Assembly (NCBI GenBank): GCA_000218705.1
Contig: GL947594.1
Coordinates: 957,848 to 1,021,847, forward strand
DNA length: 64,000 nucleotides
Origin: Prochlorococcus marinus bv. HNLC1
Lineage (GTDB): Bacteria; Cyanobacteriota; Cyanobacteriia; PCC-6307; Cyanobiaceae
Direction of reading: 5' to 3'
Every line of letters begins with the position of its first letter. Positions within the stretch are counted from its first letter, which is position 1. Shown in pieces: positions 57,038 to 63,614 of the stretch. The notes below the pieces were generated by a model that saw only the letters and a program-made list of their open reading frames with translations, was not told where the DNA came from and ran no database searches. Position numbers and translations under genes: made by a program.

Positions 57038-57676
57038 TTATCGATTTGAAATGGAGACTCTTTTTTTAATTAAACCAGTAATAATGGCAAGACCAAACAT
57101 TCCTATCATTGCAAAACCTATATAAACTGCATCAGCTAATCCTGCTCCTACTGCAACAGCTACAGCATCAAATATTACAAGACATAGGAGTAAAGAAAAA
57201 GTAAATATTCGCCACTTTGTGCCACCTAGGCCTAATCCATAACTAAGAAAGTCAAAAAGTCCTGTCATTAAGACTCCAGTCATTAAAAAGAAATTTCCCT
57301 CAAGTTGATTTTCATTAAAACTTTCAATTCTCTTCATTGCCTTATTCCCAACTAAGCGTTTTACGGGATCTCTCCCTAACTTTCTTGCGATTAAAAAAGC
57401 AATTTGACATGAGATGAAATCAGAAAAGAATATAGTTAAATAAGCAGTTTTGAAATCAAGAACAGTTCCAGCAAGAATTGCATATGGAAGATTTGATATT
57501 ACTGGGAAAATAGTGCTAATACTTCGAAGAATAAATATTCCTATGGGCGCCCATGGCCCCATACTCTGAACAATCAGATTAATCTCTTCTTTCCATTCAA
57601 CGACTATAAAATAGTAAAAAAGGATTGCAGCTAGTACACATAGAGAAATTAAAACAAACTTTTTTAACTTCTTCAT
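57038..57676 (-). CDS. TVP38/TMEM64 (DedA-superfamily) membrane protein
   Basis: A 212-residue polytopic protein with five to six hydrophobic segments. Motifs: GPWAPIGIFILRSISTIFPVISNLPYAILAG (in part) and DFISCQIAFLIARKLGRDPVKRLVG, the SNARE-associated/VTT domain signature, then GLFDFLSYGLGLGGTKWR. Members of this superfamily have been linked to lipid scrambling and ion homeostasis. Specific role unknown. Both flanks are non-coding gaps of about 270 bp without visible structure. Confidence 0.85.
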   Translation of the reverse strand: MKKLKKFVLISLCVLAAILFYYFIVVEWKEEINLIVQSMGPWAPIGIFILRSISTIFPVISNLPYAILAGTVLDFKTAYLTIFFSDFISCQIAFLIARKLGRDPVKRLVGNKAMKRIESFNENQLEGNFFLMTGVLMTGLFDFLSYGLGLGGTKWRIFTFSLLLCLVIFDAVAVAVGAGLADAVYIGFAMIGMFGLAIITGLIKKRVSISNR

Positions 57677-57945: not shown

Positions 57946-58332
57946 TTGAATACTTTTAAGATTTTATTTACTTACCTTTTGATATTTTTAATGTATATTT
58001 TTCCTGTAGAAGTGAATGCTCTTTCACATAATTGGGTTGGAGTTCCTCGAAGTAAGTATGGTGAGCAAGTATGGGATCAACAAAGTATTCAAATTAATGA
58101 AGATGGGATTCGCAGAGTTTTAAGTAAATTCATACCAAAAACTAAAAGTGATATAACTAAAGATATTCTTTATACAATGGACATAAATTGTACTGAAAAG
58201 ACTTTTAGAGATGTTGCTGTTGGAGCCGACGAATTTAATGAATTTGAAAATATTAATGCAAAATGGAAATATCCAAATGGCGATAAACTTTTGCTAGGTG
58301 TAATAGATCAAGTTTGCAGTTTTGAAATGTAA
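57946..58332 (+). CDS. Small secreted hypothetical protein
   Basis: A 128-residue protein with an N-terminal signal peptide (FKILFTYLLIFLMYIFPVEVNA) and a mature part of about 100 residues (HNWVGVPRSKYGEQVWDQQSI, RVLSKFIPKTKSD, CTEKTFRDVAVGADEF). Two cysteines could form a disulphide in the periplasm. The best start giving a full signal is TTG 57946; ATG at 57991 would remove most of it. No family recognised. Possibly specific to marine picocyanobacteria. Confidence 0.6.
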   Translation: MNTFKILFTYLLIFLMYIFPVEVNALSHNWVGVPRSKYGEQVWDQQSIQINEDGIRRVLSKFIPKTKSDITKDILYTMDINCTEKTFRDVAVGADEFNEFENINAKWKYPNGDKLLLGVIDQVCSFEM

Positions 58333-58401
58333 ATATAATATTTTCAACCAGTAACTTAAAACAGAATTTAAGTTTTATGAAATGCTTTTTGAGTAATTTA
58401 T

Positions 58402-58695
58402 TTAATTTTCTAATACGCTATTTATTTTATCTTTGAATCTTTGCAACTTATCGATTCTCGTATTTACTTTGATAGTTGTATATATCCTTGGAGCTCCTTT
58501 TTGATGGATTTTTTCATGACACATTTTTACACAATTAAATACATCTTCCCAATCACCCTCTATGGCGGTTCCATTTGGCCCAAGTTGATAAGTTAAACCC
58601 CTATCTTCAATAATTTTCTTGCATTCTTTAATATAGGGTGATAAAGAAGTTCCAACTCCAATTGGAACTAAGCATAAATCTATACTTACAAACAT
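58402..58695 (-). CDS. MTH1187/YkoF-like thiamine-binding protein (DUF77)
   Basis: A 97-residue ferredoxin-fold protein. Markers of the MTH1187 family: VSIDLCLVPIGVGTSLSPYIKEC, YQLGPNGTAIEGDWEDVFNCV, CHEKIHQKGAPRIYTTIKVNTR. These proteins bind thiamine or hydroxymethylpyrimidine and form tetramers. It stands alone, with non-coding gaps of about 70 and 150 bp on either side. Confidence 0.87.
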   Translation of the reverse strand: MFVSIDLCLVPIGVGTSLSPYIKECKKIIEDRGLTYQLGPNGTAIEGDWEDVFNCVKMCHEKIHQKGAPRIYTTIKVNTRIDKLQRFKDKINSVLEN

Positions 58696-58847
58696 AATTA
58701 AACAGACATTGAAAATGAACTAAATTAATTTTAAATCCTTTGTAATTTATGTATGAAATATTTATAAGGACAATTTAAAAGAATTTATTTACAGGCAATC
58801 TAAGTATTAAGGAATGAATTTAATTAGGACTTTTAGAAGGAAAATTT

Positions 58848-59099
58848 TTAATCAATTTTATTATTAGGGTCTAATTCTCTCATAAGTTTTTCCCAAGTCT
58901 TAACTGAAGCAATAATTCCTGTAAAGTCATCAGGAAAATGCTCTCTCATGATTGGTTTGACAGTAAGTGAAGCAGGCCAACCAGAATCTATCTTAAAATA
59001 AACTTCTTTTTTCTCCAAAATGACAATGTGAGGAAATGGTATTGGATTTTTACTTTTTCCTCTTTTGTATTCAGCTGTATATTTTGATTTTCTGGTCAT
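58848..59099 (-). CDS. Small hypothetical protein, paralogue of the next gene (copy 2)
   Basis: An 83-residue basic protein with PFPHIVILEKKEVYFKIDSG, WPASLTVKPIMREHFPDDF and TGIIASVKTWEKLMREL. The pattern PH-x-VV/I-x4-K-V-x-F-I ... P-x2-L-x-K-x2-M-x3-FP-x2-F-x-GI aligns with the upstream gene, so the two arose by tandem duplication. Its ATG overlaps the upstream stop by 4 bp. No known family is recognised. Located between the thiamine-binding protein and tRNA-Phe. Confidence 0.6.
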   Translation of the reverse strand: MTRKSKYTAEYKRGKSKNPIPFPHIVILEKKEVYFKIDSGWPASLTVKPIMREHFPDDFTGIIASVKTWEKLMRELDPNNKID

Positions 59100-59287
59100 T
59101 TTTTTGAATTAACTCTCATTCTCATTTTGTAGAAACTTTCCTCACATCTCATTACAATGCCTTTAAATGCCTTTGGAAAGTAAGGCATATAGTTCTTCAA
59201 AATTAAATGTTCGGGAAAGACACCTTTGATTAAAAAAACTACCTTGTTATCTTTCTCAACTATGAAGTGCGGTGGGATTTTATGCAT
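59096..59287 (-). CDS. Small hypothetical protein, paralogue of the next gene (copy 1)
   Basis: A 63-residue protein: PPHFIVEKDNKVVFLIKGVF, PEHLILKNYMPYFPKAFKGIV, then a basic tail. It shares the PH-x(n)-VxFxI, PxxLxxK, M-x3-FPxxFxGI framework with the downstream copy but is otherwise diverged. The two are coupled by an ATGA overlap. No family recognised. The promoter must lie in the 59288-59560 spacer. Confidence 0.58.
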   Translation of the reverse strand: MHKIPPHFIVEKDNKVVFLIKGVFPEHLILKNYMPYFPKAFKGIVMRCEESFYKMRMRVNSKK

Positions 59288-59560
59288 GAAATTTTTTTTA
59301 TTAAATTAGTTTATAATCTTTTTTTTAATTTAATTAACTTTAACTGATGATTTGTGTCAATGAGTCAATGTTTCTTCAGAAAATTGTATCTTGAACACTA
59401 GATGCGATGTTAGTTCTAGAGACTATATCAATAGTTACTTTTTTACTTAACTAACATTCCACTAACATTCCCAAAATTATTCTCAGCAAGATGCCTTTTT
59501 ATACCTTTTGAGGGTATATTTTTGTCTTCTCAGACCCCTTGCAAATACTCTATTTTCAAC
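59288..59560. other. Non-coding spacer downstream of tRNA-Phe
   Basis: With the adjacent terminator and tRNA this is the only gap above 300 bp free of protein-coding sequence. It holds an exact 11-bp tandem duplication at 59450 and otherwise AT-rich DNA with no believable open frame. A longer frame crossing 59483-59674 merely reads through the tRNA and terminator. Confidence 0.6.
59450..59471. repeat. Tandem 11-bp direct repeat
   Basis: ACTAACATTCC occurs twice head to tail with no mismatch, about 150 bp downstream of the 3' end of tRNA-Phe. It could be replication slippage, a protein-binding iteron or an integration scar; no integrase gene is present in the window. Confidence 0.7.
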
Positions 59561-59585
59561 AAAAAAGCACCCCCTAAGGAGTGCT
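59561..59585 (-). terminator. Rho-independent terminator after tRNA-Phe
   Basis: Read on the reverse strand: AGCACTCC, loop TTAG, GGGGTGCT and six to seven T. One G-T pair, otherwise perfect. It lies 32 bp past the tRNA-Phe 3' end. Confidence 0.88.
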
Positions 59586-59616
59586 AATTTGTCCCCATTC
59601 ATATAAAGAATAGAGG

Positions 59617-59689
59617 TGCCAGGACCCAGATTTGAACTGGGGACACGGCGATTTTCAGTCGCCTGCTCTACCAACTGAGCTATCCCGGC
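59617..59689 (-). tRNA. tRNA-Phe (anticodon GAA)
   Basis: The reverse strand folds with acceptor GCCGGGA/TCCTGGC, D arm GCTCAGTTGGTAGAGC, anticodon stem GGCGA/TCGCC with loop CTGAAAA (anticodon GAA), T stem CCCAG/CTGGG with loop TTCAAAT, and discriminator A. The next two bases are CC but CCA is not fully encoded. Length 73 nt. Confidence 0.97.
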
Positions 59690-59797
59690 CTTACTAATAC
59701 TTTAGATAGTGAATGTAATTTGTGGAACCCCCTCTCAATAAATTGTTTATGAATTATGTTTATTTGAAGAAAAATTAAATACTTGATTTACAAAACT

Positions 59798-61030
59798 CTA
59801 AAAATCAGCCTGTAAAGCAATAAGTGCCGATCCAAATGAAGTTGATTTATTAGAGTTTATAATAGGGATTTTTAGTGTTTTCTCTCTTATTGATTTCCAC
59901 TGTGGGTTTTTTGAACCACCCCCTATCGTAATTATTTTTTTAGGAAAATATCCTGAAAGAGTTTTAAGTTTTTGCCATCCTTTTAATTCAATCTTAGCTA
60001 AACCTTCAAGTAATCCATGTAGAAATAATGCATCACTAACAGGTCTTGGTTTAATTATTGGCTTTAAGTATGGATCATTAGTGGGGAATCTTTCTCCTGG
60101 AGAGTTTAAAGGAAGATAATTAAGAGTTGTTTTTTTTCTTGGATTTATTTGTTGACTTAATTCTTTAATTTCTAAATCAGAGAAAAATTTTGATAAAACT
60201 CCACAGCCAGCATTAGAAGATCCACCGCATATCCAATCACCATTAACTCTATGCATTGTAATTCCAGGGTGGCTAAAAGTTTTTTTAATTATTTTTTTTA
60301 AAACAATTGTCGTACCTAAGATTGTTAATCCCTCATTTTCTTTTACTTGAGCAGCTATAAATGCTGCATTTGAATCAGTAGTTCCAGAAATTAGTAAAAG
60401 ATGCTCACTAGTTCCAAGTAAATTTGCAATTGATTGATTAATTTTTCCTAAAATGCTTCCACTTTTCTTTATTACTGGTATTGATTTTGTTAAAGAAAAT
60501 GATTCGAAACTTTCAGGCCATGATTTGTTTGCAATATTCCAACCAAGTTTTACATTATTACCTTCTTCGCCGAAGCTCCAATCATTTAAAAACCATCCTG
60601 ATATCCAATCTGCTTGATGCCTTAAAATAATATTGTCACCAAAAGTATCAATTAATTTAATCGCTTTTGCCAAGCTACTATATGGGTTATTTAAGAATTT
60701 ATCTTCCCCAGCAATTAAATTTAGTTTTTTAGAATTTGAAGTGCATGCTTCGTTATAAGGTATTGAATTTCCTAAAGGAATGCCATTTGATCTACAAGGT
60801 ACTAGTGTTCCTGAAGTCCCAGAAATAGATAATCTTGATAAATTTATTTTTATTTGAATTGGTATTCCTTCAAATAATTTAATACAAGAATTTATCCATC
60901 CTTCTGGATTTTTAAATTCATAATTATAAATGCAAGAATCTTCAAAAATGATCTCTTTGGATTTATCGATAATAGATATTCTGGCTCCGCTAGATCCAAA
61001 ATCTAAGCCTCCAAAATATTCATTAGTCAT
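59798..61030 (-). CDS. FGGY-family carbohydrate kinase
   Basis: A 410-residue kinase of the actin-like ATPase fold. Seen: YFGGLDFGSSGARISIIDKS (phosphate 1), SISGTSGTLVP, LLISGTTDSNAAFIAAQ (phosphate 2 and catalytic Asp region) and KKIITIGGGSKNPQWKSI (adenosine motif). It is shorter than typical xylulokinase (about 480-500). Sugar substrate unknown; xylulose or ribulose kinase-like is a guess. The start shares one base with the metK stop (TAATG), so the two genes are co-translated. Confidence 0.88.
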   Translation of the reverse strand: MTNEYFGGLDFGSSGARISIIDKSKEIIFEDSCIYNYEFKNPEGWINSCIKLFEGIPIQIKINLSRLSISGTSGTLVPCRSNGIPLGNSIPYNEACTSNSKKLNLIAGEDKFLNNPYSSLAKAIKLIDTFGDNIILRHQADWISGWFLNDWSFGEEGNNVKLGWNIANKSWPESFESFSLTKSIPVIKKSGSILGKINQSIANLLGTSEHLLLISGTTDSNAAFIAAQVKENEGLTILGTTIVLKKIIKKTFSHPGITMHRVNGDWICGGSSNAGCGVLSKFFSDLEIKELSQQINPRKKTTLNYLPLNSPGERFPTNDPYLKPIIKPRPVSDALFLHGLLEGLAKIELKGWQKLKTLSGYFPKKIITIGGGSKNPQWKSIREKTLKIPIINSNKSTSFGSALIALQADF

Positions 61031-63512: not shown

Positions 63513-63614
63513 TTGATTTAAGCAGTCTACCTTAGGTAGTGAGAAAGGGGTGTATTCAGCCTGCAATATAAATACACTAAATTGTGTATATTCTACACTT
63601 TAATATGCTTAATT

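Follow-up and report, generated by a model that had tools for sequence, protein, structure and literature searches.

Two very small, overlapping genes beside tRNA-Phe in Prochlorococcus marinus bv. HNLC1 raise the question of what they encode, how they came to this position and why they have been kept. They were analyzed within a stretch of 64,000 nucleotides (the window), and their products are called P0002 and P0001. The finding is informative: the window pair, stranded at tRNA-Phe, belongs to a protein family that has not been described before, is found in integrative elements and has a role open to testing.

Gene pair and surroundings

The layout given by a reading of the sequence alone, two genes of 63 and 83 residues overlapping by ATGA near tRNA-Phe, is confirmed by the coordinates (Table 1). 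The ATGA at 59096-59099 is common to the P0002 stop and the P0001 start, and P0002 starts 327 nt downstream of the 3' end of tRNA-Phe, on the same strand. Charges are +7.8 for P0002 and +4.7 for P0001. A promoter was not supported by a scan of positions 58300-59800 (5 sites versus 7.2 expected). ALSH has 128 aa in the window, from a TTG start, and 139 aa in most relatives, and the flank gene beyond it is presumably DEDA, as labelled. Elsewhere in the window, a cyanobacterial ribosomal protein S1 leader (RF03151) was detected at 63519-63600 on the minus strand (43.8 bits; cut-off, 39.9).

Table 1. Features of the window around the gene pair
Feature	Position	Strand	Remarks
P0002	59096..59287	minus	63 aa; B-type; overlaps and precedes P0001
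P0001	58848..59099	minus	83 aa; A-side member; second gene; low-confidence N-terminal tail
tRNA-Phe (gaa)	59615-59689	minus	Integration hot spot
Terminator-like hairpin	59566..59585	minus	Candidate, directly after tRNA-Phe; 3 such sites in the stretch versus 0.8 expected
Thiamine-binding protein gene, MTH1187-type	58402-58695	minus	PF01910, E = 5.2e-32; TIGR00106, E = 8e-31
ALSH	57946..58332	plus	Convergent gene; right flank of the empty site; synteny with relatives
Next flank gene beyond ALSH	57038..57676	minus	212 aa; synteny with relatives

Two paralogues of an undescribed family

As judged from their sequences, P0001 and P0002 are true paralogues. Their identity is just 34% over 41 aa (BLASTP, E = 2e-6), as might result from chance or convergence, but profile-profile comparison with hhalign gave a probability of 98.2% and an E value of 5.4e-14 (11-row versus 12-row profile), and the Smith-Waterman score of 61 was reached in 0 of 5000 double shuffles (mean, 24.6; standard deviation, 4.6; maximum, 53). 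A fortuitous resemblance is thus extremely improbable, and the paralogy proposed by the sequence-only reading survived profile-profile comparison.

AlphaFold2 modelled P0002 with a mean pLDDT of 89.4 and a pTM of 0.74 (strands at residues 7-10, 15-19 and 42-46; helices at 26-36 and 49-62) and P0001 with a mean pLDDT of 72.6 and a pTM of 0.60, its first 20 residues being of low confidence. The order E-E-H-E-H was predicted for both, an agreement that is partly non-independent because their alignments shared members. Neither predicted fold had a clear match in the PDB by Foldseek (best E values, 1.2 and 0.36); in structure comparison with the PDB, the best Z scores for the P0002 and P0001 models were 4.5 and 5.6, with none of 8 or more, and the best E value in a viral structure library was 0.57. 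FLP recombinase chains, which head one Foldseek list, were rejected (E of at least 1.2; rmsd, 7.5-12.3 angstrom). A segment of meso-diaminopimelate dehydrogenase tops lists for both models (Z = 4.5; Foldseek E = 0.36; Z = 5.6), and no function was read from it; according to the structure tool's own notes, Z at this level can reflect merely a common arrangement. The best match in a profile search of solved structures (E = 0.044) was taken as chance.

P0001 and P0002 are members of an undescribed family of small proteins of roughly 60-90 aa. At E values up to 0.001, relatives of P0001 and P0002 were found in 71 and 52, respectively, of 400 genomes of the window's bacterial family, many of the genomes searched being incomplete. 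In the genus, 78 of 121 genomes have a match to the family profile, and iterated profile searches reached a plateau at 99 matches (81 unique) in 69 loci. Occurrence beyond the bacterial family was rejected, as all 17 matches of a combined profile among 386 genomes of the phylum were inside it. Members were typed as A (the side of P0001) or B (that of P0002) when they scored above 35 bits against the corresponding one of two small profiles; all 29 named loci of B-type members are from Prochlorococcus, and the median charge is +3.7 for B-type members and near neutral (+0.8) for A-type members.

No significant match for P0001 or P0002 was found in Pfam, PHROGs, NCBIfam or PADLOC. Among 25 members, Pfam at E values up to 1 returned five weak families (best E, 0.12), with no excisionase among them, NCBIfam gave no match, the best PHROGs E value was 0.031, and models of excisionases or helix-turn-helix (HTH) proteins matched 0 of 25. 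A search of titles and abstract beginnings found no paper naming the family. The sequence-only reading had suggested looking for relatives in cyanophages; 0 were found in IMG/VR and 0 in 50,697 phage records, and a phage or viral origin was rejected.

Two further, distant copies of the family are present in the window's own genome (L103:9938-10138 and L102:10601-10804), the former about 500 nt away from several consecutive small ORFs resembling high-light-inducible genes. L075 (G079:C9, 96-8503) has two tandem copies of a 5.1-kb stretch that includes a B-type gene; they are alike in the ORF beginnings compared and represent either a duplication or an assembly artefact. On contig G744:C15, family matches are mirror-placed on opposite strands with identical scores, which suggests that this contig is palindromic (chimeric).

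Association with recombinases and integrative elements

In many genomes, the family is found in a putative operon consisting of a small serine recombinase (Resolvase, PF00239), in some cases a 64-aa ORF, an A-type gene and a B-type gene, the last often beginning in the stop of the A-type gene. The four upstream recombinases checked matched PF00239 with E values of 5.4e-24 to 3.8e-30. Across loci L001-L150, a serine recombinase lies just upstream of 26 of 34 distinct A-type copies, 14 of 37 B-type copies and 3 of 19 copies of other types, whereas for the remaining ORFs in these loci that reach 60 aa the figure is 56 of 2270. This contrast is indicative only, the copies being related and the loci having been picked for holding the family; like all counts given here, it is uncorrected for relatedness. 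"Just upstream" means that the recombinase stop lies 150-700 nt before the gene's own stop on the same strand, and each distinct copy was counted once, provided that 700 nt or more of upstream sequence was present (two A-type and one B-type copies were set aside as too short). The remaining copies (8 A-type, 23 B-type and 16 other), which include the window pair, have no serine recombinase just upstream, and either type also occurs without the other.

Coupling to the recombinase is often close. Among 19 distinct A-type copies, the recombinase stop is overlapped in 8 (by 4 nt in 7 and by 1 nt in 1), the start lies 187 nt beyond it in 6 and 110 nt beyond it in 1, and 4 are without a recombinase. 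ATGA is found at the candidate start of 34 of 49 A-type, 20 of 49 B-type and 12 of 29 other genes, and TAATG or TGATG in 6 of the 29 others; these counts consider the letters at the candidate start alone, ignoring the upstream frame, and have no control. Tyrosine integrases are also neighbors: at L299-L301, the family gene follows a partial tyrosine integrase, a serine recombinase and an ORF of 45-47 aa. The 64-aa ORF before A in several operons is acidic (net charge, -11.4), and no Pfam match was found for it (L068:9602-9796) or for the small operon neighbors L068:10184-10516 (110 aa) and L070:9472-9738 (88 aa). Peptide stretches repeated before family genes were considered as a recombination site and rejected, being by eye an overlapping frame of the upstream gene. 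The sequence-only reading had seen an accessory-DNA pair at a tRNA hot spot; the hot spot stood, and what had been overlooked was the link to serine and tyrosine recombinases and to a third gene.

Two elements could be delimited by repeats. Genome G294 encodes the nearest relative of P0001 that stands alone (58% identity). Its gene begins within the stop codon of a tyrosine integrase gene (457 aa; PF00589, E = 7.6e-10), which lies shortly after guaA. The terminal 17-25 nt of guaA and the following bases recur at 16.5 kb (74 columns, 82%) and again at 19.2 kb of the locus (80 columns, 87.5%), and these two copies of the guaA end indicate two stacked insertions. Also encoded in the first insertion are a serine recombinase and a protein with DUF5906, and a replication protein model is matched there below its cut-off. 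In G248, an operon of serine recombinase, 64-aa ORF, A and B lies between tRNA-Cys and a 36-nt copy of the tRNA-Cys 3' end (88.9%, E = 4.5e-9), and the far end carries an integrase-like protein related (E = 1.5e-56) to a 513-aa protein without Pfam match. Repeats were sought in 10 loci, and the nine besides G248 gave at most 28 nt or none.

The two types are joined in G270, where one 135-aa ORF beside tRNA-Asn consists of a P0001-like half followed by a P0002-like half; this fusion is present in that genome alone, and a sequencing indel is possible. In a tree of 116 domains, the second half falls in the P0002 clade (support, 0.999) and the first half in the P0001 clade (support, 0.78, or 0.912 with the G294 copy added). 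Because the common ancestor of both clades spans 93 of the 116 tips, the two types look like old paralogues that have traveled together. Gene order is B-A in the window and A-B in G270, and the fusion and the swapped order make a working partnership of P0001 and P0002 likely. Of the heteromeric pair suggested by the sequence-only reading, the partnership is therefore strengthened, and the heteromer itself stays a prediction.

The tRNA-Phe insertion site

A 101-nt tRNA-Phe query matched 102 of the 121 genus genomes, and 96 of these were examined. The site was empty in 74 genomes, where "empty" means that ALSH or the next gene lies within 260 nt and includes two genomes with the next gene before ALSH; 6 held family genes, 14 held other insertions and 2 were not judgeable. 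With 74 of 96 genomes lacking an insertion, the description of the pair as accessory DNA at a tRNA insertion spot holds. A partial copy (26-46 nt) of the tRNA-Phe 3' end occurs in 12 of the 14 other insertions, in G792 and in G392, which was classed as empty.

The order P0002-P0001-thiamine-binding protein-ALSH is constant in four genomes (G000, which contains the window, G789, G805 and G792), and the inserted unit in relatives comprises three genes, the thiamine-binding protein gene included. G270 and G386 have other family members at the site. In the window insertion, from tRNA-Phe to ALSH, these three genes are the only ones labelled, with no integrase or serine recombinase; an att remnant beside the pair was not supported, the best score of 16 comparing with a shuffle mean of 17.0 and being reached in 405 of 500 shuffles. 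About 5 kb separates tRNA-Phe from P0002 in G805 and G792, which is 4.7 kb more than in the window. In G805 the extra stretch begins with a serine recombinase, and in G792 it contains an autotransporter as well as a tRNA repeat of 46 nt. From its position behind this extra DNA, the pair is interpreted as the older of the layers stacked at tRNA-Phe, the one farther from the tRNA. The autotransporter behind tRNA-Phe in G792 has 1188 aa (PF03797; L183:1506-5072), and G805 encodes an inverse autotransporter beta-domain protein (PF11924; L181:1588-2709) behind tRNA-Phe.

The thiamine-binding protein gene is present in 18 of the 121 genus genomes. It lies within 1 kb of a family gene in G750 also and within 2 kb of a recombinase and an A-type gene in G345. 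Within the family, 17 of 116 distinct copies are within 1 kb of a tRNA, about three times the rate expected from 35 tRNAs in 1.57 Mb of the window's own genome, which is only suggestive, since the set contains related copies at common sites, the window pair among them.

Selection on the pair

P0002 and P0001 are under purifying selection. In six pairs of the four genomes sharing the insertion, dN/dS (NG86) was 0.03-0.10 for P0002, the low end being uncertain because dS exceeded 1 (saturation) in four of the six pairs, and 0.04-0.25 for P0001. The values for the neighbors were 0.06-0.13 for the thiamine-binding protein, 0.06-0.13 for ALSH and 0.05-0.09 for the next gene. The lack of a recombinase or att copy alongside might suggest that the window pair is a decaying relic without function, but ratios of 0.03-0.25, against 0.05-0.13 in the flanks and the thiamine-binding protein gene, and both frames open in all four genomes largely refute this reading, which is now highly improbable.

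Possible function

Element origin and the partnership of the pair are well supported. We tentatively favor the fuller reading that the pair is a partnership derived from an integrative element, an accessory or regulatory factor of its recombinase that has been stranded yet remains selected. P0002 and P0001 look like old paralogues of a picocyanobacterial family in which many members sit at the end of recombinase operons carried by integrative elements. The two proteins may form a pseudo-symmetric heterodimer, which could bind DNA or the recombinase and so set the timing or direction of recombination, its role being that of an excision or directionality factor and/or an operon regulator. An element at tRNA-Phe would have brought the pair and the thiamine-binding protein gene into the window genome; the recombinase and the att copy would have gone from beside the pair, with selection on the pair persisting. 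Its remaining role might be regulation or trans-acting interference with elements that reach this site later.

We infer that the pair is probably a heterodimeric accessory or regulatory (excision-directing) recombinase factor because of the start-in-stop coupling with both recombinase classes, the size, the charge and the fused form. Doubt arises from the near-neutral charge of A types, the lack of HTH or excisionase matches and of a clear structural match, and the copies without a recombinase. A broader proposal, that the family is a new directionality or regulatory class made up of paired paralogues of beta-beta-alpha-beta-alpha topology, which act as heterodimers or fused dimers, can be placed behind serine or tyrosine recombinases alike and, where stranded at tRNA genes, guard the site against later insertions, is speculative and rather unlikely.

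The strongest rival treats the pair as island-borne cargo that serves the host and has nothing to do with recombination, such as a small regulator or binding protein retained for its benefit to the cell, comparable to the thiamine-binding neighbor. That the pair is under purifying selection with no recombinase at the site in G000 and G789, that 78 of 121 genus genomes match the family profile and that the thiamine-binding protein gene shows such cargo to exist (18 of 121) are consistent with it, as is a "SWEFYKE..." subtype that lies beside the same 51-aa ORF in several genomes. What cargo leaves unexplained, however, is that the genes of relatives begin within recombinase stop codons, of the serine and the tyrosine class alike, and we consider it possible but somewhat doubtful. 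Tiny overlapping genes in a mobile context, together with the acidic ORF before A, would also suit a toxin-antitoxin or anti-phage pair carried by an element. This explanation is improbable, as the two proteins are paralogues, are also fused in one chain and occur one without the other, and the best PADLOC E value was 0.056, in 1 of 25 members. The "SWEFYKE"-like subtype adjoins its 51-aa ORF in nine loci (L106, L108-L114 and L304), a stable chromosomal place, and no serine recombinase is labelled near these loci.

Relation to known elements

Excisionases and recombination directionality factors are tiny, often basic and often next to integrases. The present family is likewise tiny, and adjacency to recombinases was observed in relatives but not at the window pair; it differs in having no excisionase or other significant match in Pfam or NCBIfam. 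To our knowledge, paired paralogues behind small serine recombinases are unusual for such factors. The tycheposons of Prochlorococcus are likewise integrative elements with tyrosine recombinases in picocyanobacteria, a likeness of description and not of gene-by-gene comparison. The family offers defined, tiny candidate control proteins, and the natural fused construct of G270 and the repeat-bounded element of G294 are places to test them.

A preprint describes a picocyanobacterial element defined by a novel tyrosine integrase, which it sets apart from tycheposon integrases (PMC10187409). The element sits at tRNA-Phe or tRNA-Cys, in many cases close to a small serine recombinase, and its mechanism is given there as not yet known. 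The window site shares the tRNA-Phe address of that element, and in G248 the operon of recombinase, A and B belongs to a tRNA-Cys stretch that also encodes a relative of the 513-aa Pfam-blank protein. Unlike that element, the window site has neither an integrase nor a serine recombinase, and the small proteins are unmentioned in the passages of the preprint considered here. The 513-aa protein itself (L253:3756-5297) lies inside the tRNA-Phe insertion of G744, has relatives in L185, L068, L208, L125 and L184, and is possibly the novel integrase type of PMC10187409.
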